Origin: a virus
Reading direction: 5' to 3' (one strand)
Length of the DNA stretch: 45,280 bases
IMG/VR virus record: IMGVR_UViG_3300025437_000020
Span: 1-45,280 of that record
The notes below the pieces were generated by a model that was given only the letters and a program-made list of their open reading frames with translations, had not been told where the DNA came from and searched no databases. Below, in pieces: positions 7,746 through 44,868 of the stretch (position 1 is the first letter of the stretch; every line of letters begins with the position of its first letter). A program made the position numbers and the translations under genes.

Positions 7746-7753
7746 AGTATACT
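7725..7753 (+). promoter_or_regulatory. Near-consensus sigma70 promoter giving a predicted leaderless transcript
   Basis: TTGACA at 7725-7730 and TATACT at 7748-7753 are separated by exactly 17 bases. The expected first transcribed base is near 7759-7760, which is the start codon of the next gene. The promoter lies inside the last codons of the DpdA-like gene, and no Shine-Dalgarno sequence is visible. Confidence 0.6.
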
Positions 7754-7758
7754 AAACT

Positions 7759-8289: not shown

Positions 8290-8489
8290 ACGAATTTACA
8301 GTTAAAGACGATATTGGCTTTAGACTTCGTGTTAAAAGTTGGAAATGTTCAAATCCAGATACATTAAATGCTATTGAATTTATTCAAGAAATAAAAGATA
8401 TAGATGGCAATGTTGAAACAAGTTCAACATATCAGTTTTTTATGACAGACGATGAAATTACAACATTGGCACAAGGACTAACACAATGA
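8286..8489 (+). CDS. Small hypothetical protein (67 residues)
   Basis: This small acidic protein starts within an ATGA overlap and ends in another, so it sits in a tightly coupled operon between the preceding conserved protein and the T-fold-like protein. It contains a beta-rich segment (DDIGFRLRVKSWKC), an acidic turn and a C-terminal helix. No motif suggests a function. Confidence that it is real rests on the coupled overlaps and the continuity of the operon. Confidence 0.55.
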   Translation: MNEFTVKDDIGFRLRVKSWKCSNPDTLNAIEFIQEIKDIDGNVETSSTYQFFMTDDEITTLAQGLTQ

Positions 8490-8887
8490 GTGATAAAGAA
8501 AAGAATATGATTTGGGTTACCTTTCGCAAGGAAGGTATTCATATGTATCCTGCGGCAGCCACAGATCTTGCTCTAGCAACAGGTAACGAATACGATGTTA
8601 GTTTCCTAGGTACTCCACATCGTCACATATTCCATTTTAAAATTTATATCGAAGTCTTCCACGATGACCGAGATATTGAATTTATTCAGTTTAAGCGTTG
8701 GCTCGAGAAGTGTTACAATGATGGCACATTAGAGCTTAACCACAAATCCTGCGAAATGATTAGCCGTGATCTTCACGCAACCATTGTCGCAAGATATCCA
8801 GGTCGCGAGATCTGGGTAGACGTTAGTGAAGACGGCGAGAACGGCTGTTTCATTAAATTCCCTTCATCATTACATTATAATATCTAA
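8486..8887 (+). CDS. Possible T-fold protein related to QueD / 6-pyruvoyl-tetrahydropterin synthase
   Basis: The 133-residue protein lines up in order with QueD-type enzymes. HRH at 45-47 is followed by alternating hydrophobic residues, as at the zinc-binding HGH of QueD. IEFIQFKRWL (64-73) lies where QueD has its DFxxLK helix. LNH at 84-86 sits at the place of LDH, SCEMI at 88-92 matches TSExL, and VSEDGENGC at 113-121 takes the place of the strand with the pterin-binding Glu. The first zinc His (AAH in QueD) is not obvious; PAAATD stands there, and His19 lies just before it. QueD makes the precursor used by QueE, which this phage encodes at 14669. The resemblance is by eye; it could be a divergent T-fold protein with another role. 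Overlaps on its 5' side are ATGA. Confidence 0.5.
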   Translation: MSDKEKNMIWVTFRKEGIHMYPAAATDLALATGNEYDVSFLGTPHRHIFHFKIYIEVFHDDRDIEFIQFKRWLEKCYNDGTLELNHKSCEMISRDLHATIVARYPGREIWVDVSEDGENGCFIKFPSSLHYNI

Positions 8888-8901
8888 AGGATAAAAATCA
8901 G

Positions 8902-9159
8902 ATGGCAAATATTCCAGTCTACGTTCAGAAAACTCTTCGTTTAAAACCCGAAGTAAACAAAATTTTTAATGACCTCGATGCTTGGTTAGATCACTGTAGA
9001 TTTAACCTACTTCCTTACAATCCGTCTGATCTATATAGATCATTAGAGTATAAAAATTTCCAGCGTACACAAGAGTACTTAGAACGCAAAGCACGTAGAG
9101 AAAGAGAAGGCCGCCCGGAGCCAACTGAAGCTCGTAGTGATAGGAACTATCGTAGATGA
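8902..9159 (+). CDS. Small conserved basic protein (85 residues)
   Basis: The start is supported by AAAGGA 9 bases upstream. The N-terminal half reads as a compact helical domain containing IFNDLDAWLDHCR and LLPYNPSDLYRS. The C-terminal third is a charged Arg/Glu-rich helix (KARREREGRPEP) likely extended. Proteins of this type recur next to replication genes in marine T4-like phages, without known function. It overlaps the glycosyltransferase gene by 4 bases. Confidence 0.6.
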   Translation: MANIPVYVQKTLRLKPEVNKIFNDLDAWLDHCRFNLLPYNPSDLYRSLEYKNFQRTQEYLERKARREREGRPEPTEARSDRNYRR

Positions 9160-10328
9160 AAAAATTATATTATATGGGGTTAGAGCCATATAAGGCTCGT
9201 TATACTCTACAACTACAAGACTGGAATGAAACTGTCTTTAAGCGTAGAGGTATCAATTATGAATTGGTAACAGGTGAAACACTAAGTAACGATCAGGCTA
9301 TTGTCACAGGACAAGTATTAGATGCACACGGTCGTACATATTTTGGCATGAGTCAATTAATGAATCTTGTTGCCAAAATGAAGGCCGGTGAAGTTACTAA
9401 CGAAGATGTTGTTTACTTCGAAGATATGTTTCAACCAGGGATTGAATCATTGCCATATATCTTAAAACAGGTACCTGTAGAATTACGTCCTCGGATATAT
9501 GTTCGTTGCCTTGCTCAAAGCATTGATCCAGACGACTTTGTACACGTATGGGGTATGAGTGAGTTTATGGGGCACTATGAAAAGATGGTAGATTCATTTG
9601 TAGATGGGGTATTGGCAAGTAACGAAGAAATGGTAATGCATATGAAAATTGCAGGTTGGAAAAGTCCAATCTATAATATCAGTGGATTGGCATTTGGCAA
9701 AGACGAAGTGCGTGATCGTGTTGTAGGAGATTTAATTCCGTTTAATGAACGTGCATTTCGCGTTGGATTTGCGGCACGATGGGATCAAGAAAAGCAACCA
9801 GACTTTTTTATGGACTTAGCAGAACGTGTTAAAGCAAAGAATCCGTTAATTGAGTTTGCTGTATTTTCAGGTAGTAAACTAAAATCAAACAATGATAGTT
9901 ATATGGCACGTACTAGAGATCTTCAAGAACATGGCATTTTAACTATCTACGAAGATTTGGAAAAAAATGATTACTACAATCTTCTTAACAATACTCGCGT
10001 GTTGTTTAATTGCGCACTACAAGACTGGGTCAGTAATACAGTATCGGAAGCAGATACTTTGGGCTGTAATGTTCTCTACCCTGCTTATAGAAGTTTTCCT
10101 GAAACTTTTGCCAATGATCATACAAGACTTTACGTTCCTTGGTCAATAGACAATGCCGAAGAAAAGCTAGATATATTATTACATACTCCTAGTCCTAATA
10201 TGGGTAAAATTAGTAATTGGACAGATGGAACTATTGATCGTATATGTGATATATTAGAAGGCAAAGGCGAACAGTGGTTGCGTATGAGCACAGACTATAG
10301 AAAATATACAAGTGAATCAAAATACTAA
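9156..10328 (+). CDS. Glycosyltransferase, probable GT-B fold
   Basis: The 390-residue protein has the two-domain pattern of GT-B enzymes. The N-terminal half contains alternating strands and helices, with an acidic VVYFEDMFQPGIESLPYIL segment. The C-terminal half begins with RVGFAARWDQEKQPDFFMDLAERV, typical of the nucleotide-sugar domain of family 4-like transferases. ADTLGCNVLYP near residue 300 matches the position of the family's EAxxxGxP donor-binding loop. The substrate is unknown; glucosylation of DNA, of virion protein or of the cell surface are all possible. It overlaps the epimerase gene by 17 bases, and that cassette context suggests sugar metabolism or surface decoration. Confidence 0.7.
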   Translation: MKKLYYMGLEPYKARYTLQLQDWNETVFKRRGINYELVTGETLSNDQAIVTGQVLDAHGRTYFGMSQLMNLVAKMKAGEVTNEDVVYFEDMFQPGIESLPYILKQVPVELRPRIYVRCLAQSIDPDDFVHVWGMSEFMGHYEKMVDSFVDGVLASNEEMVMHMKIAGWKSPIYNISGLAFGKDEVRDRVVGDLIPFNERAFRVGFAARWDQEKQPDFFMDLAERVKAKNPLIEFAVFSGSKLKSNNDSYMARTRDLQEHGILTIYEDLEKNDYYNLLNNTRVLFNCALQDWVSNTVSEADTLGCNVLYPAYRSFPETFANDHTRLYVPWSIDNAEEKLDILLHTPSPNMGKISNWTDGTIDRICDILEGKGEQWLRMSTDYRKYTSESKY

Positions 10329-25512: not shown

Positions 25513-26706
25513 TTACCAAGTGTTTAACGGAGATCTTTTCCAAGTATTTGTTTCTATACAAATATAGACATAATTTGAATCCCAGGCAATTTGACCTGTT
25601 GTACCTATATCAGTAGGACCTGCAGGTGTATGAGATGTTGAGGATATTAATCCTCCACTAACTGTTAATGTACTAGATACATTTGTGGTACCGTATACAT
25701 TTAATCCGTTACCAACCGTTAATGTATTAGACACGTTTGTAGTCCCATATACATTTAATGCATAATTCAACGACGATGTTGATGTGTTGATACTAATTGA
25801 ATTTTTTTGAATAGAAATAGTGTCTACTAAAATTGTATCTGTTGGTCCTTTGGTTTTAAAAACTATTTTTCCGCCTTGTACATTATTAGCGACAATAGCA
25901 TCACTATCTTTTTTATAAAATTGAATGTACTCTGACGATACACCACCGGCTGATTGTATAACAACTCCATTATTGCCTTCGGGATTATTAGTAACTGATG
26001 TTTGATAAACAACTTTTCCTGTTATTATTTGTCCTGTAGGATCATTCTTTAACAAATAATTTGTTGCTGTTTTTCCACCAAGGCTATCTGCATTTATAGC
26101 AGTTCCCACAAATTTTGGAGAGTTAATTGTTGTTAATGTAATACCTGTACTAATACCATTTGCAAATCCAGATAACACTTCAACAGGTACAAACGTTTCT
26201 TTAGAAAATACAGATACAATGTCCCCGTCAATTTTATTTAAAATAACATTATGTGTAGATCCTGAAATATCTTCGATTGTAGAAGAAAATTGCCCTGTTC
26301 CTGGTGTTGAAAGTGGACCTACAATGGTCCAATCTGTGCCATTATATATTTTCAATTGACTTGTAGTAGTATCCCACCATAAGTCACCAGTTTTACCTGT
26401 TGTTGGTGCTGTACCGCTGATATATTGACCGCTTACAGGAGTCCAATTTGTACCGTCATTTACTTTTAAAGTATTTGTACCATTGTCAAACCAAAGTTGT
26501 CCTTGTATAGGATTGGTAGGGCCGGGCGTCGGACCTGCAAAATTTTCTAATAAATGTAGGAAATTTTCAGCAGTCTTAATACCGTAATTAGGATACCCTC
26601 TACCAATTAAATTTAAACTAGTATCTACTATATTGATACCAGGTGGCATATCAGGAACTGTTATTGTTCCATTATTAGGATCAGAATGTTGTAATGTATA
26701 ACTCAT
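25513..26706 (-). CDS. Tail fibre-like structural protein, paralogue C
   Basis: The 397-residue protein has the shared N-terminal module in a diverged form (GRGYPNYG, ENFLHLLENF, GQLWFDNGTN, GDLWWDTTTSQLKIYNG, IVGP). Residues 300-350 contain a tandem duplication of NVYGTTNVSNTLTVGNGL. The C-terminus (GQIAWDSNYVYICIETNTW) matches the end of the collagen-like protein at 27357-28049. A weak GGGAT site lies 7 bases before the ATG. Fibre or appendage function is inferred from this modular pattern and from its place among the late structural genes. Confidence 0.7.
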   Translation of the reverse strand: MSYTLQHSDPNNGTITVPDMPPGINIVDTSLNLIGRGYPNYGIKTAENFLHLLENFAGPTPGPTNPIQGQLWFDNGTNTLKVNDGTNWTPVSGQYISGTAPTTGKTGDLWWDTTTSQLKIYNGTDWTIVGPLSTPGTGQFSSTIEDISGSTHNVILNKIDGDIVSVFSKETFVPVEVLSGFANGISTGITLTTINSPKFVGTAINADSLGGKTATNYLLKNDPTGQIITGKVVYQTSVTNNPEGNNGVVIQSAGGVSSEYIQFYKKDSDAIVANNVQGGKIVFKTKGPTDTILVDTISIQKNSISINTSTSSLNYALNVYGTTNVSNTLTVGNGLNVYGTTNVSSTLTVSGGLISSTSHTPAGPTDIGTTGQIAWDSNYVYICIETNTWKRSPLNTW

Positions 26707-26708
26707 AA

Positions 26709-27320
26709 TTACATCCCGTTAGTAAGACTTTGAATTCTTACTGTATAATCTATTTGTATCATACGATTTAATGATTTTTGTACCGGGTGAAAAATAACGT
26801 GAGTTAACAAATCACCCATACCTGGACCGTCTGGACTGTATGCTCGCAGTCCTAGTTCATCAAATACATATGTTCCGTCTGTGTTTGTTGCATTATCAAA
26901 TGCCGCTTGTCCACTAGGTTCACCAAAATCTAACAAACAACTTACTAAAATATCTGTGTATGCTGTTCCTAATACGTGTCGAACATCCATAAAATTCCTA
27001 GCAGGATCTAAACTAGATGGTTGTTTTGGATCAATGATTTTACTGTAAGTTTCATTGTACAATGTAGAATTAATACCAACTGTATTAGGTGTTAAGTACG
27101 TGATAATTCCAGTTTCATCTACTCGAGTCCCACCATTGCCAAACGCCATTTCAGCAATAGTACCGTAACCTTGATTGCTTAAACTACGTGCTAACGCTAC
27201 TGAAAAGTTTTCGTAGTGTATGGCATTAGATTTATCAATGAATACTTCTTTAGATACAGGATCAAAGATCTTAATATGACCTTTAACTCTTATATTTCCT
27301 TGTTCGTTTGGCTTGTTCAT
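26709..27320 (-). CDS. Conserved virion structural protein (203 residues)
   Basis: I choose the ATG at 27320 (MNKPNEQ), the position where related phage proteins usually begin; an upstream in-frame ATG at 27338 adds six residues. Characteristic segments are VKGHIKIFDP, NAIHYENFSVALA, EMAFGNGGTRVD and TGIITYLTPNT. This is a conserved protein found among tail genes of marine T4-like phages, function not known to me. The late promoter octamer at 27344-27351 predicts transcription starting at 27338, so the choice of start codon decides whether this mRNA has an 18-base leader or none. Confidence 0.65.
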   Translation of the reverse strand: MNKPNEQGNIRVKGHIKIFDPVSKEVFIDKSNAIHYENFSVALARSLSNQGYGTIAEMAFGNGGTRVDETGIITYLTPNTVGINSTLYNETYSKIIDPKQPSSLDPARNFMDVRHVLGTAYTDILVSCLLDFGEPSGQAAFDNATNTDGTYVFDELGLRAYSPDGPGMGDLLTHVIFHPVQKSLNRMIQIDYTVRIQSLTNGM

Positions 27321-27356: not shown

Positions 27357-28049
27357 TTAGAATGTGGATACAAAAGCTCTGCGCCAGGTGTTAGGAGCAA
27401 CACATATATAGACAAAATTACTGTCATAGGCAACATTTCCTACTACACCTGTGCTGGTACTACTAGCAGGTACATATACTGCCGCAACACCCGGTCCAGT
27501 AGCTCCAGTTGGACCCAACACCCCTTGTGGACCAGTCGGACCAGCAACATTACTTTGAGGGCCAGTTGGGCCTAGTGGACCAGTTGGGCCTACTGAACTT
27601 GCGCCTGTGGGTCCTGTTGCTCCAATACCAGTAGGTCCTGTAGGTCCTTGTGGACCAGGAGGACCGCCACTTGGGCCAGTCGCACCCTGTGCTCCAGTTG
27701 CTCCAGTGGGACCTGGTACATTACTCGGTGATCCGGTGGGACCAATTGCCCCTTGTCCAGTTGGTCCAGTTGCTCCAGTGGGACCTGGTACATTACTCGG
27801 CGATCCAGTGGGACCAGTTACTCCTTGCCCAGTTGGTCCAGTAGGTCCCGGAACTGTGCTTACTGGCCCTGTTGGACCTGTTGCTCCATTTGTACCTATA
27901 CCAGGAGCACCCTGTGGACCAGTCGGTCCTTGTGGTCCTTGTCCAACTGAAAATGCGGGTAAACGTTTGGCCAATCTATTATCGACCACCATAAAATATG
28001 TTTCACTGGTAGCAGTACTAAGCGTTGGTAATTGATTAATATTTGACAT
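27357..28049 (-). CDS. Collagen-like fibre protein
   Basis: The 230-residue protein has an N-terminal 30 residues including [17 protein letters not shown]-like sequence, then a run of Gly-X-Y triplets from about residue 38 to 190, mostly GPT, GAT and GPQ, with short interruptions such as PSNVP. Such repeats form a triple helix in phage fibres. The last 40 residues ([19 protein letters not shown]) form a small globular end also present in paralogue C. AAGGA within the end of the giant gene precedes the ATG by 8 bases. The trimeric shaft with a C-terminal knob fits an adhesin or appendage on the tail or baseplate. Confidence 0.85.
27697..27800. repeat. 72-bp tandem DNA repeat in the collagen-like gene
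   Basis: A 32-base sequence at 27697-27728 recurs identically at 27769-27800, so the unit is 72 bases, equal to 24 residues or eight Gly-X-Y triplets. The near identity at DNA level suggests recent duplication. It would allow change in shaft length by recombination or slippage. Confidence 0.8.
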
Positions 28050-28053
28050 TTCT

Positions 28054-31000
28054 TTATCCTTCTAATGGAGATCCTGATTGATCTATAATAGCAATTCCTG
28101 TATCATCTTCAAGTGCAGGATCACCTCCGTAATAATAATTATCTGGCAATTCAGCAGGACTATCCTGTAAAAATACAGCCTGTAAAGTATCACTATCTAT
28201 TAACGATAATGTTTTAGTACTGTTAACTTCTGTATTCCAAACTGACGATCTTTCAACCTGACGTTTTACCACAGTTAATTTTATGTCTGGGTAGACACCT
28301 TCAGGAATATTTAATGTAATTTGCTGAGTAGATGTATTAACAGTAAACTCAGGAGGTTGATACTTCAATCCTTTGTATACGTATCCTCTAAATGAATTTT
28401 CTTCCTTAGAATTTTCAAATACCCATACTTCATTTGTTGATGTAACAACAAATGAAGTATTTAATATTCCAGTAACTGGCAAAGAAGTTATGTTATCTAC
28501 AAATCCAACTGAGCTTATTGCAGGACTATCATATGAAACTGAGATGTCTTGATGATACGTTCCTTCTTTGTTTAGCAATCTGCCTCCATAATAAACACTA
28601 ATTTGATCAGTAGCATTTACTATGGTAGATAATGTTATTCCACTATTTACAAATGTTGCTGTATTTGCTAAGCCTGTATAATATTGAACTATATTACTAT
28701 TTGTTGAAATTGTGTAGACTGTACTTGTTGTTGTTAATGTATTTTGTACAAGAATTGTTTCACTGTAAGGAACTGTTTGATCAGTTCCTTGATCAATAAC
28801 TTTTGTATTTTCTTGACTATAGAATTTAGGTGCAGTACCTAATGTACTTCTACGAAGTTGTCCTAATATATTACCATTGACTTTAAAAAACTCAATTCTT
28901 TCTCCATCAATAATTACAACACCAGGAATATTTTTATCAACAATTGGTTGTGTTAATACTGTTGCATCAGCAACATTTATTTCTGTATCTGTAAAAAATA
29001 ATGGACTAGTTAGATAGGTAGTGTTTTGTTTACTCAAACGTTTAAATTGTGTTCTATTAAACAAATCATTGAATATTCTATAACCCAATACCGTGGTGGA
29101 CAAATCAGTACTATTAAATGTTCTAATTACAATTTGATCTTTAGCTCCAATTGTAAATTTATCAGATATTTGGACAGTAACACTGTCATCTAAAATTTCA
29201 AAATCAACAAAATTAACCAAAGGTATACCATTTAGACTTACCCATATATAATTTTCATCTAACACTGGACGACTAATTTTAAATCTATGATTTGAATTTC
29301 CAAAGAATTTTTCTGTTCTCATTAACATATCGTCTTGATCGGTATATGTTATAACTCTAATCTCGCCACTCCAATTGGTATTCCATCCAAAATAATTAGA
29401 ATATGTAGGGGGCGCACATAATAAAAGATTGTTTCCAATAATATCATATTCATAATCTTGTCTAGGAAGATTTGTAGTAGGATAAGATGGTGAAGATGAT
29501 TTATACAAAATTGCTACAACATCACCCGGATTTAGTACTGGTTGTATTATAGTAACAAGGCCAGTGGAATTTACCGAGAAATCAAATCCTCTTAATAATT
29601 CCTGCCCGTTAATGTATGCACGTACATTTTCTAATCCAAAATCATTGGTATCTCCATTATATCCTACAGTATCAGTTATTTGGAATGTATTTGTATTTCT
29701 ATCATACACCTGATAGTAATCGATGTGCGGAGGAACTAATAATTTTCTACCATTACTATCAGCAAAATCAACAATTGCATTGGCTACTTCAGGTTTAATA
29801 TTGCCTGGAGGTTGAGTTAATGCTATTGGAAATTCTGTATATACAGTAGCAGTAGATAGTGTATTAATTTTAATAATCTGTTCGTTAATTTCATTAAATG
29901 TTTTATGATCAGTACCAAAGAACCAAACACTAACTCTGTTTTCACCAGCTGGTAAATTATAAACAATAACAGCCGCTCTACGATTGTTATTATTTGCTGA
30001 AGTCAATACGTATCCATAATTTGATGATGTAGTTACAGCGGATATAGATTGACCGTTAACTGTTACATAAGCAGTCTTAACTGTATTAACACCAGATATA
30101 CTTTGTATTTCAATTGTAGTTTGGTCAGTTACTATGCTTTGAGAGTCTGTTAATCCTGTTTGATTTTCAGTGCTATTGCTACCTATAGTTACTATAGTAT
30201 AACCTAATTTTCCCGACACAGGTTGTGGAGGAATAATTAATTTGTTTAGATCCCAATTAATGTTATACATTGTCGACGAAGTTATATTTGTTGCAGTATA
30301 GCTAAAAATTGTTCCATTATATGTAACCATAACGCTGGCACTATTTGGAGGAACAACACTCATAACTCTAGTCGTAGTCGATCCTGCTACTACATCAATA
30401 TATGATGATACTATAACTGGAGACGCTTGTGGACTCTTTGTGTATACATTAATGCCTAAACTTTCAACAACTTCTCCAGGCACCATTTCTTCTGGAGCAT
30501 AGCTCGTGTTAGGTGTTAAGAATCCATCACCATCGATGATAATATCAGATGGATTAATTCCTAATGCAGTTGTATATCCTAAATCGCCACCTCTTATTGA
30601 ACTGTCTAATACACTAGAATCGGTATTATAACTCCAAAATTCTATTACAGAACCTGTGCTTATAACATTAACTGTGGTAGTATTAATTGTAACTACATTT
30701 GTGATTGGATCTACACCTACAACTTTAGGATTAGTTCCACTAAACACATTAGATGTGGTGTTTATTACTGCTACACTTTGTCCAATTGTAACTCCTGATA
30801 TATCCGATAATTTAATAGTTGATGAAGTACCTGTAGTATTATAGGATCTGTTAGTTGACGTTGTAACTGTATAGAATCCAAAATTGTCATCCCACAATGC
30901 TGTATCATAACCATTGATATCCCATTGGGTAGTGTAATCAAACATCAATCCTGTTATTCTAGTTTTAGGATAATCAATTCCGGTCATTAGTTGTCCTAAA

Positions 31001-34000
31001 TCTAGGCCTGGCATACCAGATGTAGCTGTATAATAATTTTCTATTCTGTCAACAGCATTTAACACACTTTGACTCTTATTATAAGTAACTGATAATACCT
31101 GTCCTAACTTAGGAACATAATTTAAGAATGAAATTTTACTATAATGTTTTGCATAACCATTATAAGTTTTTACATAATTTTTAATTGTATAATCAGAATT
31201 TAATATCAATGATCTGTCAAGAGTAACCACAATCTTAGATTTATCTAACTCGGCTAACCAAGTTAATGAAAACTCCGAATCTGTGCCATTACAATTAAAA
31301 CTATCAGATGTTACGACATTTCCAGCCTGTGATACTTTGCTAGTTCTGTCAAATTTTAATCCAATTGTAGTAGATCTTACTTTGTTATTTGCAATGTATG
31401 GATATGCTGTTGCAGTAGTTATAACTGATCCGCCACCTAATATACTAACCTCGGGTGTGGTTATGTATCCGCTACCTGAATTAATTACTCGAATTTGAGA
31501 AATTGCGCCGGAGCTTACATATGCTTCGGCAGTAGCAGTAGTACCTCCTTCAAGATCTGGATCAGAAATAATTATCTGCGGAGCTTCGGTATATCCTGCT
31601 CCTGAATTTCCTAATGATATTTCAGACACAAAATCAGAGTAATTATCTGCCCAGGATTTCCAAGGATATTGAGAAATATATGAACTACTTGTATCTACTG
31701 TTATAAACTTGTCAGAAGATTTATCATATATTGCAGGTAAATCAAAATCAGTTATAAATGATCCACTAGGATCTGTTAATGTATAATTAGTAGTAAATGT
31801 TCTTATCTGCGTATGATAAGGTTTAACTTCATTTACATAATCTTCATAATAACTACTGTTCTGTAATTTGTATACCAATCGTTGATCCAACCCACCAGCA
31901 TAATTTGTAACATTGATAAATGATGTTTTAAATGCCCAGTCTAATAATTTCTGTTCTGATAGTGCATACTTAACTGCTCTAAAGAATAATAAATTCCAAT
32001 TAACTTTTAAGTCATTTACAAATAAATCTTGTTTCAATGCTGTTAAAATATACAATAATTCAGCATCAGGAGTTTGATCATACAATGTTTGATCGTAGGT
32101 ATTTTCATCATAAGCAAGATTTGTATTTCTAATGTCCCATAAATTAGATGACAACTCTATTGTTCCATTTTGAGAATAAACAATATTATAATCAGAATCA
32201 AATGTTCCGTTGCCAGTATCTATTTTTTCTAATATAACATAATAACCTAATCCTGCATTTTTAACTTTAACATATTGTCTAGTAGATACAGTTATTTCAT
32301 TAAGCTCGTATAATTCATCTATTGTATATGCAATATCTACAAAAGGATTATATGAAGAATCAACCCAATCAATATAATTCCAATATAAAGTTGTATTATA
32401 AGCCTGAGTATGTGATCTTACCCAAGTTTTAAAATCTGTGTCAAATATAAATTTAGTCCATTTACCGTTATAGGTAGAATCGGCCTGTACAATAACAGTA
32501 TAAGGTCTTACTGTTAACTCAGGAGGAACTGTAAAACCACTACCAGCATTCTCAATGTTAACAGAAACAACACGCCCATTTGCATCAATTGTTGTACTAA
32601 TAGATGCAACCGTACTACTGTTGATAGAAACTGTAGGACTAATTTTATATCCATATCCTGGATTATTAATTGTAACACTGGTTATTTTACCATTTTCTAC
32701 AGTACAAGATAATTGTGCTGTGGCAAATAATTGTGTATCAATTAATAATAATGCTTCGTTATCTTCAACCGATTGATCATATTCGTGAGTTGTTACATCA
32801 GGAATTTGTTCTTGTTTATTAAGATTTACAAAACTGTAATTACCTGTAATTCTCTGATCAACCAACACATTGTTTACAAATTCAATAATATTTCTTAGTG
32901 CAGAATATCTATTTTTAAACAAAGTCTGTCTTGGTCTAATACCAATACCATATTTTGCTCTTTCAGACAGTGCAGGATCAGGTACAAGATTTCCCAGGCT
33001 ATCATGACCTATTAAACTATCTATAAGTTTTTTCTCTAGTAATGTGTTAGGTACACTTTCTGCTGACCCTTCTTGTAACAGCAACCATTCAGTATGACGA
33101 GGAATTGTATTATCAATAACATCTGATGTGATGTTTAAATGTATTCTATCATCAACCAATAAGTTTCCAACATTAGCAACTCCGACTGCATCTCTAGATA
33201 ATGCAGAAATATACATTAATCCATATGATTTAGGATTGGTAATTATTTCTGCAACATCAAACGCAGATATTCTTCTATTTTTTACATTAGGAACAGTTGT
33301 TTTATTTTTTACCCAGAAGTAATAATAATTTGTAAATGAATCACTTAATGGATTATAAATTTGTTTAACTGCAACAATATCGTTATTTGGATATTTAGGT
33401 TGTCCACTAATACCATTGCTTAACCCAACAGCGGTATCTGCTAGGCTAGCCCATTGACTAGGTAGTATTGTTGATTCAACCCATTCATATACATCAATAC
33501 TCGAACCTGGAAATAATTTACCCCAATTATTTTTACGGTATTCTACTTCACCTTGTTCGTACCATACATATTTGACTGTTGATAAATCCCACCATAGCTC
33601 TCCAACTTGCTCGTTGGACCAATTTGTATTAGGATCGTTAACTGTGGCACTTGTACCCAATGAATAAACAGCAGGGTCAAAAGAAGAACGATATTTTAAT
33701 TCTTGTTCTGCTAGTCCTGAAATTTTTCCTTTTACAGGATCTATAACTTCAAGATAATCAACAAGTTCTTCATTGAATGCATCAATTAAAGAAACTTTTT
33801 GTATTGTATCTGTTACTACTAAATCGTCTTGAGATCTAATTAAACTCCAGCTTTGGGTACCTGTATTGATTTTATAAAATTGATAGAATGCACTTGTAGC
33901 AGTATCTGGATTTGTATTATTTTTATAAGCTGGAGCTCCTACATAAATGCTATTTGCATTTACAGAAACACTGAAACCAAAATTAGTTCCAGTATTTGTA

Positions 34001-37000
34001 TCAACAGGAGTTAATTCATCAGCAAGTTTGAATAAATTTGCCTTCTTATTATAAACATAAGTCGTACCAGAATATATAACATCATCAAAGAAAGATGTTG
34101 ATCCTAGATCAAATGTAGTTTGAGAATCACTGTATTCGCTGTTTGAGTCGTTTACATAGTTTCCTAGCAACACAGAGTATCTATCAAATGTATCAGAAAT
34201 ATGTCTATTTGTACCTATTGCAGAAATTACTAATTCATCTGTGTTAGGACTTATTCCTAGAGATTGGCCAAATTTCATTCCTACTCCTGCTACAGGATTA
34301 TTGATAATTTGTATCAATGAATATGTGCCAGAAGAGATATTATATACAGCAACTTTACCATATGATTGATCGTCGCCTCTTGCTTCCGGTGCAGAAATAA
34401 ACAGATAGTCACCAGTTGAACTTACAGAAATAGATTCGCCAAACTTTGCATATTTGCCAAAAGGACTATTAATCGTTTGGAGGTAATTAGTAGCTGTGCC
34501 TGTGAAGATATTTACTAGGCCTGTTCTATTAGAATAACCGGGAGCACCTACTGCAATTATCTCTGCATTATTAGAACCACTAATTGTATATCCCCATTGA
34601 CTTCCTGCTGATACTCCAGTTGCTGATAATATTCCATTATAAGCAATATTAATATTACCACCAGTAGTCGTCATCCAGTATGAATACACAGAACCTACAC
34701 CTATACCAGATGCTTGTGTAGCACCTACTAATAGCAGTTTACCTTGATCTGTGTTTGCCTGATATATACTACTTCCAAAACGTTCATAGTTTGATGGATT
34801 AGGGCTCAGTAATACTTTTTCTGTATTTTCTTCAACAAGTATAAGAGAAATACTACTAATTTTTACAAGACCTTCTTGTACATATGTAGAAGTAGTACCT
34901 GTAGAACTAGCAAACCTTAACCCGCCAGGAGCATCATTGGATAATATTCTATCAGTTAATGGAGCACCTGCAAATAATAATCCATATCCTGTATTATTAA
35001 ATTCTTGTTCGTCGTAGGCAACAGACCATCCAAATCCTGTATCCGAACCGTGATGATATGTTTTATTAGAATTAATACCGTATCTAAATTTTTCGTTAAC
35101 AGAGTACGGAACTTCGCCGTATACAAATACACTTCCAGTATTATTAGAACTTACAAATCCAGGACTACCAACTAAGAAAATATCAGAATTTTTTCTATTA
35201 CTAATACTCCAACCTAGTCGTTGGTCAACTGGGGACGTAGATCCTGTTACAGCATAATCGTTATAATTTTTAATTTTTTCATACACTGCCCAGTGTCCGG
35301 TGCCATTATTGTCAACCCATACTTTAGAATTTTCTTCTAAAGATAATAAGTTTTTATCGTCGGGCAACAAATCAAACCCATCGTATCTAACGCTAGGAAA
35401 TGTAAACAACAATCCAGGATTAGATGGTATTAATTGAGAGATGGCAACGGTAGATGTACTAGTAATACTAAATTCACTCAATGACGGGATCGAAGATATT
35501 TTATATATTCCGTCCATTGTACTGTCAAATTCGCTGACAGAAATAATATCACCTGCTGATAAACCGTGAATACCATCTGTGACAAAATTAAGTTGATCAT
35601 TTACTATTGGATCAGGAGTCATACTTATAATTCTTGAGGGAGATAAAGTATATCTTAAAACATCCCAATCGTTATTATTTTTATTTGCAACCCAAATAAT
35701 ACTACCTTCGCTGATAGAATTAGTGGTTGTAAAAGTTAACAGTCCATCTTCAGTAAACGAAGTTAAATTAACATCATCAAATCTGGCATATCCTGCTGTG
35801 TTTAATTGCATTACATCTATATCTGATGTTGTTACAAATGTATCAGATGATTGATAATTTGAAGGAGTTATAACTAAATCACTAGGTAAACTATAATTAA
35901 TCAACTCTGCAGGAGGTACAGGCACAGAATCAACAAAATTAATTGTTTGCGGATTGTCTGCAAAAGTTCCTTCTACTAATGGTACTTCTAATTCTTTAAA
36001 TGTTTCAAATGATCCGTAATATCCAACACGGAATGCCCATTCTTCTCTATAATCTATTTGTCCTTGTAGATTATGTATTGTAGCTTTGGCTAATTTACTA
36101 ATTGCGTTTTTAGTTCCTTTTTCTCTAATAAACCCTTGATAGAATTTATATTGTGCAATAGGATCTGTAAAAATATTGTTTAGGTATGTACGAGGAGTAT
36201 ATCCTGTTAGATGCTGTGCCATTTGTTGTTGACCGGCATCAAAGTTATCAATATCTAAACTATAAAAATCTTCAAACTGATTAATTTTATAATCAAAGTT
36301 TGGTAATAATGCGGCAACTGGTTTTGATCCCAACACTGTCCAACTTGAGAATTCAAAAGAAGTTGTACCAACTAAATTAGTATTTGCTGAGTAATAATTA
36401 CCATTAAATCTAACAACATCACCTGCGTTGTAATCTGTATAAGTTTTCCAATCAGAAATAATAGCAGAATCATAGACAAACCCTGGACTGAAGTAATCTC
36501 CATTCCAGTTTGCTGTTCTAAATCCAACCAATTTCATTCTATGCTGGTGGTATCCAGATTGAATATCATATATAGTATCATTAAACAATGTTGCATTATT
36601 GAATATGATAGCGTGTTCTTTTTGTACACTATTCAACTTGGCAAAGAAAATTCCGTCAGTTGAATTGAGTGTTTTAATTGTACAAATTCCATTATCTCTA
36701 GAAACAGACAATGCCTTTTGAGGGAACGCAACGGCATTGGCTTTTAATATACTGTAATCATAAAAACTATTAAAAATATTATCAACTACAGAATTTGCCA
36801 ATTGAAATTTAATTTGATCAGCAAATGGACTTAATGCTACAATACTTCCATTTGCCCAATTTTGGGTAGTCCAGTACAAAAATTCTTTGCCAGTAAAATC
36901 CCAATTTAATACTGTTTGTAAATCGGTGTTATACTCATCAAAAATAAATCCTTGATCTTCTAACCAAGCACCGTATCCAAGTATCACATCATAGACTTCT

Positions 37001-40000
37001 TGAATCGTATTAAACTCTGTCCCGTATGGAATATTAACTGCTACTCCATCAAATTTTGTTGCTGTTTTTACAGTTGCTCCACCTGTTGTTGGTAATCCTG
37101 GCAATATTTGGAAGTATGCAGGATTAAAACTTTCAGTACTCCTGTGACTAGTTGTTACACGATAAAAAGAATTTTTATACTTAACAATTTGTCCTTGTTG
37201 ATAAAATGTTCCTGCTATTGCCGCATTTGCAGTGGTTGTATCAACTGCTGATAAACCTGTTTGACCTGTAGTTGAACTTTCTGCCCAATTTACATAGGAT
37301 GATGATATACCGCCAACTGTGATAGATGAGGCATTAGAATTTCGAATTACTCCGTATACTGTAAAGTAAGGAGACGATGTATCAAAACCTCTAACAAGTA
37401 ATTTTCCATTGTTCTTTTGTACAATGACTCCTGATATTGCTGATGATTTAATAGGATTGCTTACATTAAGAATTAAATTATAATCTTCAGCATTTAACAA
37501 TGCTCCAGGACTTGTGCTTGTAGGATCAATAGCATCTATAATAATTTGTATTTTAGATTTGTTAACAAATCCACCTACTTTATAAAATAAATTAAATGTT
37601 AGGTTACTTAAATCACTTTGTAATTCTGTATCATAATTTCCTGTACGCTGGCGACCCACTTCACTAACAAAAACGCTATAACCACTGGTTAATGTATTAT
37701 TTGGTCCTTGAATATAAACATTTTGTAAATTTAAAAATTCATAATTAGAGCCATATGTCCATTGACCTGCAATATTTTTATTGATTCTAATCGGATCATA
37801 CATCAATGATGCATATGTAGCAGATTTAGTTAATGCTATTAATTTTTGTACAACAAATGGCCAATAACTACTGCGTCTCCACGCAGTTTCTGCCGCGCCC
37901 TGATCACCAAATACCCAAGGCTGTCTTCTGCTATAAGGAGTAATGTCTGATGCCAACAATACTGTAGGATCAACTAACTTTCCGCTATCATCAACTGGCA
38001 ATAACTGACTTAGTTGTGGACGAGCATAGATTGAATTTACTCCTGCTCTGGATCCTTGTTTAATAATACCTTGTTCAAGATCGCCCCATAGGATATCATT
38101 TCCTGATGTATAAGGAGCAGGACCGTATTCATTGGTCCACCACTCTGGCTCTTCAGAAAATCCTAACATTTCCCAAGGACAAGTATCTGGTCTGTCAGTA
38201 TCATAAAAATGTTTGTATATTGCTCTCCAACTACCTGCTAATGGAATACTTAACGTGTTGTTATAACTCTCAGTGTAGTTCCAGGTAAAAGGATTTGTCT
38301 CATTAAATGCTGTGTTGGTTACATAATCAACATTATAAAGACCTGTCCATTTAATAAATTCTTTTACTAAAATTTGTTTGATTTCATCTTGAGTGTAATC
38401 GTTATTCCTAAATGCACCAGGAAGAACTGAATTAATATCTAATAATTCTGATCTATATTCTGCTTTTATGTTATTGTAGATTCTAGTTTCAAACTCTAAT
38501 ATAATGAGATCTCTATAATCATTATATGCAACCATAATACTACCATCGTGACCTTGTATCACAGTGGTAGGTGTTACATAAGTATTGTCAACATAAATGC
38601 TAGGAGTAAATTTTGGATACAATCCTAGTTTTGAAGGAGTAGGAGGAACAAAAGATCCTTTTGTATCTGTATAATCATTTATTACAATTGTATCACCAAT
38701 TGCAATATCTACAAGAATTTCAACTGATGCATCTGCAACAATAAATTGATAATCTCTGTTTCTTATTAATTGAATTCCATTTAGATATACCAATACTGAT
38801 CTTAATGTTAACGCATTAGGATCATAATCTGATGTTATAGGAAATATTTTACTATTGGTGTTAGTAACAGTCCAGGTTTTAGTAATTTTGTCAGTACCAT
38901 ATGCTATCATATCTGATAGATAGTAAGGAGACAATAAATCTTTTTCAAAATTAATTTCAGTTAATGCTGTATCAACTGCTGTTATCGGGTCTGTTTGAAT
39001 ATCAAGATTAGAAATTTTTCTTAGGAATGATAATTTGTATTGATTATATTGGTCAGCAACTTTGGTCACAGCATCCACGACACTATGCTCTTTTTTTCCT
39101 ATGAAAAGATGAGCAAATGCAATTGGATTTATATTAGATATGAATCGAGTACCGTAACTAGAAGGATCAGCCAAATCTCTTAAATTATTATCCCCAGGAA
39201 CTACTCCAATAAAATCAGGATCTCGATTAGCCATAGTGCTAACGTGATCTGTAATTTCGCTGAGCGTAAATGCAGGTATGGGACCATTTAACGGATTGTT
39301 TGTAAGGCCCAATGGTGTTTCATAATACGATTGTTCAGAGGTTGCAGTTGTTAATAAACTAGTTAATACAGGTATAGGATATTCAACGGCTTCTTTCCAT
39401 ACATTGAAATATTGATCATTTATTTTAAAATATGTAATACCAGTTGATATAGTTTCTACAGTTTGATTTGTAGTAGAAATAGTGATAGTGTCTGTCATAA
39501 AATAATTATTAAACAGATATGTTCCAACTCCTACACTATTTCTATATTGTAAAGGAAAGCCTAACACTAAATCAGCAGTACCAGAGCCAATACTATATCC
39601 AAATATTTGACTTCCTTTAAAGTTACTAGAGTAATACCTAGTATCACTATAACTATTTCCTAAGTCATCAAATAAATCAAACAATGGTGCTTGATTTAAT
39701 GAAGTATGTTGCTGAGAATAATTCCAGTTGGTTCCATCATACCACCAACTTGTACCAGCATATTTTGTTCCAAGATTAACTCCAATTACTGATCCAGCAG
39801 AAGGAGTTTCAACTTTTTGTAAAGTTAATCTTAGTTGTCCAGCAATATCAACAAATACAACTTCATATATATTGTTTCTTATTAGACTATCTGTGTCAGC
39901 AGTAAAAATTACTTTATGACCTTGTTCTAGTAATACACCATCTATATAATATCCTGCAGAACCTTCTACAGTATTAAATGCATTGGTAGTTTTGCTGTCA

Positions 40001-40959
40001 ATAAGATCAACATTACCAATTCCTTTTGATCCAAAATTATAAAGTTGCATCCCTGCCGCAAACTCTATGATTGGTCGTTTGGCTCGCATATTAGTAGGGT
40101 AGACCGGTTGCTGTCCTGTTAACAATGCACTTGTGGTAATAATGTCTTTGTGTACCCAACGATTATATCTAGACCAAGGATTTAAATCTGGACTTGCTCT
40201 ATTAATTGTAATATATTCAGGATTTATAGGTAATTGTTTATACCCATCAAATGGATACTCATCGAATGGAACTGAATCAAATGTTTCACTAAACACAGTT
40301 GAAAATGTTTCATTGCTGGTTAAATTTCTAGAATCTACTAAAACTATAGATGTTCCGACACCTTCAACAAAATATTCTTGACCTTGGTATGACTCCGGCG
40401 ATACATTTGTACCGAACTGAATTTTCATTCCATTTGATAATGTTACACCATTTGGAGATGTGTATGTTGCTTTTCCAATAAGGTCAACATCAATGTATAA
40501 TGTTGACGAATCAGTAGTTTCAATTGTAATTGTATCTGGTCCGTTGACTAGCCAATAATATTCTTGATAATTTACAAACTTATCCCAATCAATTCTAGGA
40601 TCATAAGAATAAAATTCTGATCTAAATATTCTATCAAAATTTTCTGCAGATCCACCATTCAAATTAATTTCATTTATTAAGTCATCTAATGCAACAACAT
40701 CATTGACATTTCCATTAATATCTTTAACTACTAATGCTGGATTTAATTGATAATCTCTACGTAATGGCAACGTTTCGGTTATATAAACATCTGTTGCTGT
40801 ATAAGTAGGAGTATTTGTAGATCCTATATAACCTTCAATGCGCTCTAACTGAGGTTTTTGAATAAGCTGGTCAATAGTACTAGCTAAGAATTTAGAATTT
40901 TTAGTTGTTTGTAAAAATTCTGGAAGTAATTCAACTGATTTAATTATTTTTTCTGCCAT
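28054..40959 (-). CDS. Giant virion structural protein, probable baseplate/tail component (gp7 position)
   Basis: One uninterrupted frame encodes 4301 residues, directly after gp6, where T4 has gp7 (1032 residues). The N-terminus ([37 protein letters not shown]) is one I associate with large structural proteins of marine T4-like phages. Recognisable internal parts are: repeated beta modules with LNG...DY and GD near residues 710-760, 3240-3300, 3780-3825, 3900-3950; two carbohydrate-binding-like modules (1253-1286, 1504-1546); seven FG-GAP-type repeats (1915-2380); and four Gly/Tyr motifs (about 2765-3165). The gp6 stop lies 2 bases before, with GGAAG as ribosome-binding site. It likely extends from the baseplate and contacts the cell. 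Orthology to gp7 is by position only. Confidence 0.85.
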
Positions 40960-40961
40960 TT

Positions 40962-43900
40962 TTAACTTCCACTAGTTGTAACTATGGCTGTTGTTTTTAA
41001 TTGTGATGCTGTAATAGCATCAATAATTGTTATATCATTAACGGTTGCTCCGTTGATAAACAGTTCGTTGCTTTGACAAGCAACCTCGTATAAACTACCA
41101 AAATTATTTGATGAATTAGGAACTATAACAAAATTTGTTATATCAGGGGTCATAACATTCATAACATAAGTTGCTAGTTCACTAAAATAAAATGATTGAC
41201 CAAACTCCCAATTTTGAAGCCCAAAGAAATCTTCAATGGCTATCAATATTCGGCTCTTAAGATCATTGTCACTAGTTGTTCTTGAAGAATTTCTAACCGC
41301 TTTAAAAGTTGCCTGTAAATTTATATCTGCATAACTGCCAAATAATACTTTATATTGAACAGGTTGAAAAACAATTTCATCGCTGATAGTTTTTATTGGC
41401 TCAAGAGCAGAAGAATAATTTTGTTCAAGTGTTGCACTTGTAGGTGCTAGTGGTTGTGTTCCGCCATTGATTAACCAGTTTCTAAATGCAGTATCATAAT
41501 CCGCAGTTAACATATAAACATCAATAATATTGCTCTTGCTTGGATCAATTCTACGATCTTCCCCGCTATTATGAACATATTGGAATTTTAATTCGCTTCT
41601 TCCTGGATATGCAAAATATTCAGATCGATAAGTCCAAGGTGTTCCAGTTAGTGCTCCGGATGCTGAATAACTTTTTACAACATTAATTGATGGATCATAA
41701 AAATAATATAACTGCCCGTCAGCAGGAGGATAGTTTTGCGCATCTGCCTGAGCTTCTGTTTCAGTTGGATATGCTAAAAATTCTCCGCTATCAACCAATG
41801 AATATCTTTCTCCACTACTCGATGTTTGAAAATAAACAAATTTATCTCTGTATGAAGTTTGTGTGCTCGTAGTCAGCGGTTGAACAATAACATTAAATGA
41901 ATCTGGATCAAGAATTTGTCCTGAACTATTATAATCGTAAAAACTTGTTTGGACTTTTTTAGGCTCAACATATCCATCAGGTTCTACAATAGAACTATCA
42001 ATTTGCCATTGGTAGTCTTTTCCTAATCCTATACTAGTAGAGGTGTTTAAAGAATTAATAGATAGAACATTGATTTTATCTTTAATTACTGTGTTATTGA
42101 CATAATCATAATTGACAGAGTTAGGATCAATAAAGAATGATGTTTGTTGTTCACTTTCAAAAATATAATTTGTAAGTCTATATCTTACTTTGTAACTATT
42201 TCCTGTCCAGGTAAAAGCAATTAACCAACTAGAATCTTTGTTTGAATTATCGTTGTTACCTTGTAATGCAAGACTAAAAGGATTTATCAAATCAATATTT
42301 GTATCTTGAATAATGGTCCAAGTTCTAGTATTTTGATCAAATGCAAGACCAAAATTTCTTTGTGTTAGACAAAGACTTACTAATTCATTTTCAAATGTAT
42401 ATGTAAAAGAATTAATAAAAGTAGGAATAACTTCACTAGGAATTGCACCGGACGCAATTACATCTGTTAAAACAATAGGTCCTGCCCCTGTAGCAAGTGC
42501 ACCACTGCCTGAATTAGAACCATCACCGACTACCTGATAAACTTTGGTCCAAATATAATCTATTGTATTGCTACCTGGATTATTAACTATTGTACCGTTT
42601 GGTTTAAAGTATTTTCCGGCGGGCGATACAAACTTAACCAGCGCACCAGCACTAATATATTTTAAATTACTAGAAGTATATGTACCTACGCTCACTGGGC
42701 TAATAGAATCTGTAAAATGTCCGCTACTTTGATTAGAATTTTTATTGTCTTGTACCCAGGTTAAATTTAAGTTCTCCAAAGACGGTCTTATATATTCATC
42801 AAGATAAAAAGAACGAAGTGCTGGAGATGCAACTACTGGTTCTAAATATGTTTTAATTGCTGAAAATATTTCGTTTTTATTTGTAAATGTAAATTCAAAA
42901 TTTTGTTCGTTGGTATTTTTATAAAGTATACCATCTGTTGCAAAAATATTTGTGCTACTATATTTGCCTGTCACATCACTTAATTCAAAATATCTACTCA
43001 ATCCGCTATTGGATCTAGCAATGCTTTTAACTTTAAGAATGTTACTTCCTAAAGTCAACGGAGCAATATTGTAATCTTCAGCAGTTACCATACGGTTTTG
43101 TGTATAATACGCCTGAGGAGCTTTACTTTGTATACTAGCATTTGATTCTGTTCCAGCACTATTGCTTACTGTATATTGTAAACCAAATGTCATTGTCAAC
43201 GAATGAGCTTGTCCTGATTTATTAACATAAGGAACTGTAATCACAATCCCCGACATTTGCTCAGGCTTAACAGTATAGGTTAATCCATTACTTTGTCTAT
43301 AAAATAAAACAAATTGTCCTTGTGGCAAATTACCAAAACTACCATCTGCAAAATTTAAATCAATTTGATCTTGATCTCTAGAAGTCACACTATAAATGTT
43401 TCGTTCAGAAACATTCAAACTATTATAGATAATATTGTTTCCAGTTACAGCAGGAACTTTTGTCCACAAGGTTGAGTAGTTACCGCTAGGGTCTAGTTGC
43501 CAAAGCCAAACATCGTTGTCATTTATATTTGTAACATTAACACCAACAATCTCATTGGCAACAGGATTTGTAATAGAAAAATTAGATACTCCAGTTTGTC
43601 CTTGTTTAAACTGTACAAAAAATCCAGTGTTAACACTACTAGATCCTTGATTATCGTTTTGATAAATGAAACTAAAAGTATTTTTAGGCTTAGGTGGTTC
43701 TTCATATATAGAAGTTTCACCAGACATCGATGATGGAATTATTTCAAAATTCATCGATGTGCCATTAATATTTTTTTGAAATCCAAATGTAGGAATATCT
43801 GTGTTACTACTATTAATACGATATTGCTCGGTTAATATTCCATTTATTGTTTGACGATTATACGGCTTTCCAAAACTAAATCCACCTTCCATAGATGAAT

Positions 43901-44381
43901 TTAATACACTAACTATTTGTTCATACCAATTTGCATTAGTAGGATCATCCCACGATACTGTTGTATTAGCTAAATTAACACCTGTAGAATCATAGACATT
44001 ATCAGTTGTTGAAACTGCTGTTAATTTTAGCAAACCTTGAGCAGGTACATTACGTGTAGGAATATAACTAATCAACTGTGCTAATCTTAAAATACTATCA
44101 CGACGTTGCGCTGTTTCTAAGAAATTCTCACGTGCATTTAAATCTACACGAAAACTTAAATTTTGTCCAAGAAATGCAATAAGATCAACTAATGCAATAT
44201 ATTCGCTACTATCAATGTAATCATTAAAATCTTCAGGAAAATTTTCTTGAAGATATTGAATCATTATTCTTCTTAATGTTTCAAAATCATAACTTTGAAA
44301 CTCGGCGTTAGGAAAAGATTGGTATATTTTTTGCCAATCTTCTGCGACAAGTAGTTGTGAATTGGTTGCTGGAATAGTCAT
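40962..44381 (-). CDS. 6: Baseplate wedge subunit gp6-like
   Basis: The 1139-residue protein is the wedge component that, with gp25 and gp53, joins baseplate sectors in T4 (gp6 of T4 has 660 residues). The N-terminal 120 residues (FETLRRIMIQYLQENFPEDF, LIAFLGQNLSFRVDLNARE) and the central APQAYYTQNRMVTAEDYN are the conserved gp6/baseplate J signatures; the C-terminus contains ILIAIEDFFGLQNWEFG. About 450 additional residues lie between, beta-rich, at about 480-950. A late octamer precedes the gene, and no Shine-Dalgarno sequence is seen in its short leader. Confidence 0.9.
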   Translation of the reverse strand: MTIPATNSQLLVAEDWQKIYQSFPNAEFQSYDFETLRRIMIQYLQENFPEDFNDYIDSSEYIALVDLIAFLGQNLSFRVDLNARENFLETAQRRDSILRLAQLISYIPTRNVPAQGLLKLTAVSTTDNVYDSTGVNLANTTVSWDDPTNANWYEQIVSVLNSSMEGGFSFGKPYNRQTINGILTEQYRINSSNTDIPTFGFQKNINGTSMNFEIIPSSMSGETSIYEEPPKPKNTFSFIYQNDNQGSSSVNTGFFVQFKQGQTGVSNFSITNPVANEIVGVNVTNINDNDVWLWQLDPSGNYSTLWTKVPAVTGNNIIYNSLNVSERNIYSVTSRDQDQIDLNFADGSFGNLPQGQFVLFYRQSNGLTYTVKPEQMSGIVITVPYVNKSGQAHSLTMTFGLQYTVSNSAGTESNASIQSKAPQAYYTQNRMVTAEDYNIAPLTLGSNILKVKSIARSNSGLSRYFELSDVTGKYSSTNIFATDGILYKNTNEQNFEFTFTNKNEIFSAIKTYLEPVVASPALRSFYLDEYIRPSLENLNLTWVQDNKNSNQSSGHFTDSISPVSVGTYTSSNLKYISAGALVKFVSPAGKYFKPNGTIVNNPGSNTIDYIWTKVYQVVGDGSNSGSGALATGAGPIVLTDVIASGAIPSEVIPTFINSFTYTFENELVSLCLTQRNFGLAFDQNTRTWTIIQDTNIDLINPFSLALQGNNDNSNKDSSWLIAFTWTGNSYKVRYRLTNYIFESEQQTSFFIDPNSVNYDYVNNTVIKDKINVLSINSLNTSTSIGLGKDYQWQIDSSIVEPDGYVEPKKVQTSFYDYNSSGQILDPDSFNVIVQPLTTSTQTSYRDKFVYFQTSSSGERYSLVDSGEFLAYPTETEAQADAQNYPPADGQLYYFYDPSINVVKSYSASGALTGTPWTYRSEYFAYPGRSELKFQYVHNSGEDRRIDPSKSNIIDVYMLTADYDTAFRNWLINGGTQPLAPTSATLEQNYSSALEPIKTISDEIVFQPVQYKVLFGSYADINLQATFKAVRNSSRTTSDNDLKSRILIAIEDFFGLQNWEFGQSFYFSELATYVMNVMTPDITNFVIVPNSSNNFGSLYEVACQSNELFINGATVNDITIIDAITASQLKTTAIVTTSGS

Positions 44382-44430: not shown

Positions 44431-44868
44431 TTATTGTGTAATTAGTCCTATACTCTGATCAAATGTTAGTTTCATACTTGTTGATTGATTAGTAGCATTA
44501 AGCAATAAAGTCAATTCAAGTACATATCCGTTTGGATATTCTGTTAGGTCCATTTGTATAGGAGTTACTCTAGGATCGCTGGTACAAATTTTTGTAATAT
44601 CAGCTCTTAACGCATCTTGTGTTTGATCAGTTAACGGTTCCATTAACAAATCCCACACACTGCTTCCAAAAGTAGGATTCATAACCCTACTACCTTTTTT
44701 TGTATTAAATTGATTTATAATATCTTGTTTGATTAGATCTAAATCGTATAATCTAGATCCGGTATTAGTATCGTCTACTGAACTAAACCCTTTGTAAAAA
44801 TGAGTTTGTTGAGTAGGTTGCTGATATACCACTGCGGCATTTGTAATTTCTAAATTTTTATAAGGCAT
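44431..44868 (-). CDS. 25: Baseplate wedge subunit gp25-like
   Basis: The 145-residue protein matches the gp25 family (132 residues in T4), a wedge component related to the baseplate protein of type VI secretion systems (TssE). DLDLIKQDIINQFNTKKG, SRVMNPTFGSSVWDLLMEPL and DPRVTPIQMDLTEYPNGY are the family signatures. It precedes gp6 in transcription order, as partners in the wedge. The only plausible start is the ATG at 44868, which coincides with the predicted first transcribed base of the late promoter upstream. Confidence 0.92.
   Translation of the reverse strand: MPYKNLEITNAAVVYQQPTQQTHFYKGFSSVDDTNTGSRLYDLDLIKQDIINQFNTKKGSRVMNPTFGSSVWDLLMEPLTDQTQDALRADITKICTSDPRVTPIQMDLTEYPNGYVLELTLLLNATNQSTSMKLTFDQSIGLITQ

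Follow-up and report, generated by a model that had tools for sequence, protein, structure and literature searches.

What is a segment of seven FG-GAP-type repeats doing inside a giant virion protein of a phage? The question is raised by the IMG/VR virus record IMGVR_UViG_3300025437_000020, of which positions 1 to 45,280 were analysed (the window), and in which a preliminary description made from the letters alone had placed an integrin-like beta-propeller within a phage tail protein. As detailed below, the segment is supported as a predicted seven-bladed propeller fold of the integrin type, FG-GAP_2 subtype, which lacks calcium loops and stands at the turn of a beta-hairpin of the host protein. 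Most likely it functions as a clade-specific module that binds a putative ligand, or docks a partner, at the baseplate region. The window most likely represents 45 kb of the genome of a jumbo phage (a myophage in the explanation favoured here), because a propeller-bearing relative (L108) is found on a 327 kb record.

Residues 1915-2380 of the giant open reading frame (ORF), which correspond exactly to positions 35217-33820, contain seven units, as had been claimed. Their FG-type starts are located at residues 1915 (LGWSI), 1976 (FGWSV), 2061 (FGSSI), 2122 (WGYTI), 2173 (FGESI), 2230 (FGQSL) and 2327 (FGFSV), and each is followed by a VGAP-like strand (at 1928, 1995, 2076, 2135, 2186, 2243 and 2338) and, in most units, next by a G.V.VY-like strand. 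Unit 6 carries in addition a long B-C excursion (2249-2297) with a conserved FD motif (TTFD...T.F). A strict FG...GAP regular expression matches four times in the segment, never in the other ~3700 residues of the protein, and on average 0.002 times in 5000 shuffles of the segment. Searching the segment against FG-GAP families, as the preliminary description had proposed, returned Pfam FG-GAP_2 (PF14312) with an E-value of 2.2e-13 and 50.6 bits, where 23 bits is the cut-off, three stretches passing; NCBIfam gave no match. Two scans of IMG/VR located relatives of the segment on 31 contigs, and the resulting alignment A2 comprises 19 sequences including that of the window. FG-GAP_2 is matched by all 19 (best 1.4e-25), and 18 of them show the full set of seven units, the contig of the remaining one (L023) ending after the sixth. 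A tblastn search of the segment against 50,697 phage records gave no match at 1e-5, so that no propeller homologue came to light by sequence in cultured phages.

Fold prediction points in the same direction. When the A2 profile was compared with all PDB chain sequences, hardly anything but integrin alpha subunits was recovered (alpha-4 at 1.2e-11, alpha-M at 2e-8, and alpha-X, alpha-6, alpha-L, alpha-V and alpha-IIb). The AlphaFold2 model built with A2 has a predicted local distance difference test score (pLDDT) of 76 and a predicted template modelling score (pTM) of 0.79. Along the blades the blocks mostly score 80-95; the low-confidence parts are chiefly the two ends and the unit 6 excursion. 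Submitted to Foldseek, this model gave 50 best PDB matches that are all integrin alpha (E 1e-14 to 7e-11), in alignments of about 530 columns (505-597) that run over its whole length, with template modelling (TM) scores that reach 0.54 when normalised by query and 0.66 when normalised by target. The ring would be closed, as read from this full-length alignment to closed integrin propellers and not from coordinates; a fold without a closed propeller did not arise. A general Pfam scan of the ORF found nothing further integrin-like, ectodomain legs, a transmembrane helix and a beta-subunit partner not having been searched for.

The borders of the propeller became apparent from relatives that do without it. 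The family was surveyed through its downstream flank, which gave at least 583 relatives, and a second survey was ranked by Atu_ph07. Between the conserved flanks three states occur: a short connection (238-296 amino acids), other inserts (338-1565) or the propeller (643-1469). The giant proteins of the cultured phages RaK2, PA5oct, SCTP-2 and Atu_ph07, which belong to the same phrog_10938 family, have no propeller at the site (4 of 4), their flanks being separated by 238, 351, 539 and 1565 amino acids, respectively. Relatives with a short connection reveal that the entry point is the turn of one beta-hairpin (WAVYEKI...WSLIR). The propeller-less relative L128 reads DIVYVDNGESENQWTVYKRH-LNKWEPIRTAQSKV where the window is split by the propeller of ~470 amino acids; the hairpin VYVDNGESENQWTVYKRH-LNKWEPIR of L128 has in the window a divided counterpart, with the WAVYEKI side and WSLIR on either side of the propeller. 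Since both pieces are strands in the AlphaFold2 model, the seam of the ring probably comes from the host hairpin, with its WAVYEKI and WSLIR strands as the edge strands that bring about closure. The interval 1915-2380 given in the preliminary description thus holds for the units and not for the extent of the propeller, as the probable closing strands reach ~1879-1896 and 2370-2377. In the explanation favoured here, a closed integrin/FG-GAP-type propeller was inserted at the turn of a hairpin that the protein already had, a clear example of an entire propeller entering a protein at such a turn. The mapped borders allow the propeller to be expressed, solved and deleted separately. At the same site, the giant protein of Atu_ph07 (14917-28266 of L012) is rich in GYG..P.V repeats over the 1565 residues between its flanks, and glycine-rich stretches similar to it occur in L153, L155, L166 and L197. 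The SCTP-2 insert (20554-22167 of L013) looks by eye like a LamG/concanavalin-type domain (YWTFDN...F.G...), with no match in Pfam.

In a tree of 121 non-redundant members, a single branch, with a Shimodaira-Hasegawa-like approximate likelihood ratio test (SH-aLRT) value of 100, separates the 95 propeller-bearing rows from all others. The propeller state needs one change on this tree, compared with 23.7 in shuffles. The tree was built by a quick search from columns outside the insert, its long-branch warnings fall mostly on propeller-less rows and its sample is biased to the neighbourhood of the window. Within this sample, the propeller apparently results from a single gain (or loss) and not from repeated exchange. 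The choice between the two depends on the root, which is a midpoint; the favoured direction is gain, in which case the propeller would have been taken up a single time by the ancestor of a large lineage and retained ever since. It is under purifying selection, with ratios of non-synonymous to synonymous substitution rates (dN/dS) of 0.04-0.43 in ten pairs within the clade. A comparison of the window with a 99% relative (L003) shows a divergence peak at 33.5-36.5 kb (56 differences/3 kb, versus roughly 2-4/kb on either side) and a second one in the tail-fibre genes (25800-27000). In the propeller 20 of the 26 differences are synonymous, the pattern expected from import by recombination. In most close pairs third-position divergence in the propeller is just slightly raised. 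A swappable receptor-binding domain as a general account was rejected on this slight excess together with the one gain or loss.

The giant protein that houses the propeller is likely part of the virion, in its baseplate region. This is based on its family, on mass spectrometry and on the neighbouring baseplate genes. The profile of phrog_10938, labelled 'virion structural protein', matches the ORF in three stretches with an E-value of 0 and 1090 bits. The N-terminal 1653 residues matched 60 phage records by tblastn, among them PA5oct, Atu_ph07, SCTP-2, RaK2, PBECO4 and 121Q, with distant homologues at 27-31% identity; in PA5oct-like phages 96% of the query is covered at ~31%. The PA5oct homologue, gp355 (3857 amino acids), is annotated in its record as detected by electrospray ionisation tandem mass spectrometry (ESI-MS/MS), and family members here range from roughly 3300 to 5400 amino acids. 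In the window two baseplate wedge genes lie upstream of the giant ORF and a tail-fibre gene cluster directly downstream (Table 1), and in RaK2, PA5oct and Atu_ph07 the giant gene also comes after the gp6-like wedge gene. As the T4 order is 6-7-8-9-10, the giant protein occupies by position the place of gp7. Homology to T4 gp7 is unsupported by hhalign, in which the probability against the single gp7 sequence is <1%, and by fold; only gene order is alike. The preliminary description spoke of a tail protein; a virion protein belonging to the baseplate region agrees with our results, and a position in the tail is likely from context. Those records of RaK2-like jumbo phages that were read assign no function to this protein, on which the delimited, clade-specific propeller provides a handle.

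Table 1. Features of the giant ORF and its surroundings in the window (residue numbers refer to the giant ORF).
Feature	Position	Strand	Basis or remark
Giant virion protein ORF	28054..40959	(-)	4301 amino acids, phrog_10938 family
Propeller including host hairpin strands (1879-2377)	33829..35325	(-)	FG-GAP_2, profile search, AlphaFold2, Foldseek, regular expression
N-terminal host hairpin strands (1879-1896), insertion entry	35272..35325	(-)	by-eye alignment with uninterrupted hairpin of propeller-less relatives
Blade unit 1 (1915-1975)	35035..35217	(-)	
Blade unit 2 (1976-2060)	34780..35034	(-)	
Blade unit 3 (2061-2121)	34597..34779	(-)	
Blade unit 4 (2122-2172)	34444..34596	(-)	
Blade unit 5 (2173-2229)	34273..34443	(-)	
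Blade unit 6 (2230-2326)	33982..34272	(-)	low-confidence part of model
Blade unit 7 (2327-2365)	33865..33981	(-)	best FG-GAP_2 stretch
C-terminal host hairpin strand QSWSLIRS (2370-2377), exit; probably last ring strand	33829..33852	(-)	
Conserved upstream flank (1550-1659)	35983..36312	(-)	common to propeller-less jumbo phages
Conserved downstream flank (2386-2593), DP.KG...LWWD.S..Y...EW	33181..33804	(-)	
CBM_5_12-like motif (1504-1527)	36379..36450	(-)	Pfam E 4.7e-5, 23.8 bits, under curated cut-off 26.2
gp6-like baseplate wedge gene, neighbour of giant ORF	40962..44381	(-)	phrog_10646 E 5e-285, phrog_219 E 1e-20
Small baseplate wedge gene	44431..44868	(-)	phrog_43 'baseplate wedge subunit' E 5e-19; called gp25-like from the label of the family and the position of the gene
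First gene of downstream tail-fibre cluster	27357..28049	(-)	phrog_6320 and other tail fiber families

In integrins the ligand face is formed by the B-C and D-A loops. In the phage propeller the B-C loops vary more (entropy 2.2-3.1) than the A-B loops (1.8-2.6) in six of the seven units, strand entropy being mostly 1.0-1.7. This variability, together with the propellers known in phage tails, makes a binding or docking platform the best reading. The propeller would be a rigid, surface-exposed platform at the baseplate region, and its variable B-C loops may meet either a cell-surface molecule or another part of the virion, e.g., a fibre from the adjacent cluster. Taken as a whole, a clade-specific propeller free of calcium loops, grafted into a hairpin of a giant baseplate-region protein and serving as such a platform, is a fairly probable account. 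The evidence does not tell a receptor from a fibre partner. Several points weigh against the account. The analysis is purely computational and identified no ligand. Amino-acid divergence in the propeller exceeds that of the rest of the protein, not strongly, in 13 of 19 close pairs, several of which repeat the same phages, entered with different locus ids. So weak an excess is as compatible with docking as with recognition of the host. Moreover, no similarity of the giant protein to the single T4 gp6, gp7, gp8 and gp10 sequences was found. Its N-terminal 1100 residues have a confident model (pLDDT 88), but Foldseek matched it to no solved structure at E <0.01, the hits being weak, short and to tail proteins of phages, so that gene order and the label of the family are what places the protein in the baseplate.

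Which partner the platform would meet divides the explanations that survive best. That the propeller docks another virion protein, either a fibre or a neighbouring giant subunit, is a serious possibility though short of an even chance. It accords with the retention of the propeller across the clade under purifying selection, with the tail-fibre cluster immediately downstream, and with two analogues: the integrin alpha propeller with its beta subunit, and the seven-bladed nozzle propeller of SU10, which like other podophage nozzle propellers docks fibres, in this case short ones (PMC9509320). Speaking against docking, no partner was identified and the propeller-less phages do without it.

A domain that binds a host receptor or glycan and sets host range is conceivable, and we hold it tentatively. 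Receptor binding has been proposed for the propellers of phi11 Gp45, which is five-bladed, and of phiKZ gp131C, which is seven-bladed and located at the baseplate periphery (PMC4901313). A CBM_5_12-like motif upstream of the propeller, the resemblance of the L003 peak over the propeller to that in the downstream fibre genes and the B-C loop variability can be read in the same way. However, one origin with vertical retention in 95 phages and no exchange, strong purifying selection and the absence of Asp-rich metal sites argue against it, and the L003 peak is mostly synonymous and reflects no general pattern over other pairs.

Some relatives of the proposed platform are more elaborate, with an extra 46-431 amino acids between strands of single blades. 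L058, L068, L071, L082 and L086 have inserted tandem units of ~65-70 amino acids that look helical, in up to six copies (consensus TRAEVI.AYQNN..APLYP.E..IRYWM..GL), between strands of blades 3 and 5; in L058 they span 7526-7963 and 8282-9532. These units fit no known family convincingly: for the inserts of L058, L082 and L068, neither Pfam nor PHROGs nor PDB offered a persuasive match, and L086 has one Pfam match above the cut-off, NeqB_N. The integrin propeller also holds an inserted domain, the I domain, at a different loop. An extended scenario, in which the lineage took up the propeller once, the loop face acts as an integrin-like adhesion or docking head and sublineages add helical-repeat inserts within blades, seems to us rather doubtful. 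In another sublineage (L069:2842-3192, L066, L077 and L081) a domain of ~117 amino acids, by eye perhaps immunoglobulin-like, stands between blades 6 and 7.

An insertion that is decorative or merely increases size, with no ligand of its own, is improbable. The site does hold other inserts or just the short connection in relatives, but dN/dS is well below 1 and the seven units are kept in every aligned sequence that is not cut short by its contig.

Still less credence can be given to a propeller stabilised by calcium in the way of integrins and FG-GAP proteins of bacteria, to which the integrin-type units would point and which the preliminary description had considered possible. In integrins several blades have a DxDxDG-like site in the loop that joins their strands 1 and 2 (PMC3192720), and bacterial integrin-type propellers have one such site per repeat (Chouhan et al. 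2011, PMC3192720). Inspection of the Asp-rich loops found no DxDxDG-like loop in any A-B hairpin of the window and its 18 aligned relatives, by which calcium sites are rejected at sequence level. The strict Cage motif (aromatic-aromatic-G-aromatic X13-20 P X2-15 G) has no match in the window, and its relaxed G-P-G core occurs in five of the seven window units and at 107 of 133 unit positions over the 19 sequences. Accordingly, the phage propeller has an integrin-type fold of the FG-GAP_2 subtype that lacks some of the features that define integrins. Chance low-complexity repeats without any propeller, a reading that nothing favoured, have a negligible probability in view of the FG-GAP_2 and integrin profile matches, the AlphaFold2 model, Foldseek and the regular expression set against shuffles.

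Annotations of FG-GAP propellers already exist for proteins of phages and giant viruses, and baseplate propellers are known too. With integrin alpha the phage propeller shares the seven FG-GAP units, the full-length fold and a sequence-profile E of 1e-11; the former is the N-terminal part of an ectodomain, whereas the latter lies in a hairpin turn of a virion protein. Viral PF14312 proteins in BFVD (uncultured Caudovirales A0A6J5S3H5, cyanophage S-TIM5 H6WG31, the Atu_ph07 'hemagglutinin' A0A2L0UZX4 and proteins of giant viruses) share its repeat family and/or fold, but the named phage proteins are stand-alone, of about 390-470 amino acids, unlike a propeller within a giant protein. In Atu_ph07 the propeller is in a separate gene of 393 amino acids and the giant protein has none; this 'hemagglutinin' gene (NC_042013.1 243018-244199) lies beside genes annotated tail sheath. 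The propellers of phiKZ gp131C, phi11 Gp45 and the SU10/T7 nozzle, which likewise belong to proteins of phage tails or baseplates (PMC4901313, PMC9509320), are of other types than that of the window, and none appeared at E up to 1 in the profile search or in the 50 best Foldseek matches. New here are an integrin-type propeller without calcium loops in a giant jumbo-phage protein, its mapped entry point and its single origin in the sample. In the searched literature, outside which most subscription journals lie, no tail protein of a phage is described as having a propeller of the integrin type.

Other observations concern the surroundings of the propeller. A second CBM_5_12-like stretch is present elsewhere in the giant ORF, and a PA5oct-like homologue of the giant protein is annotated 'chitin-binding type-3 domain'. 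The first tail-fibre gene contains an internal tandem repeat at 27693-27848 (an 84-base match at a 72-base offset, with 90% identity).

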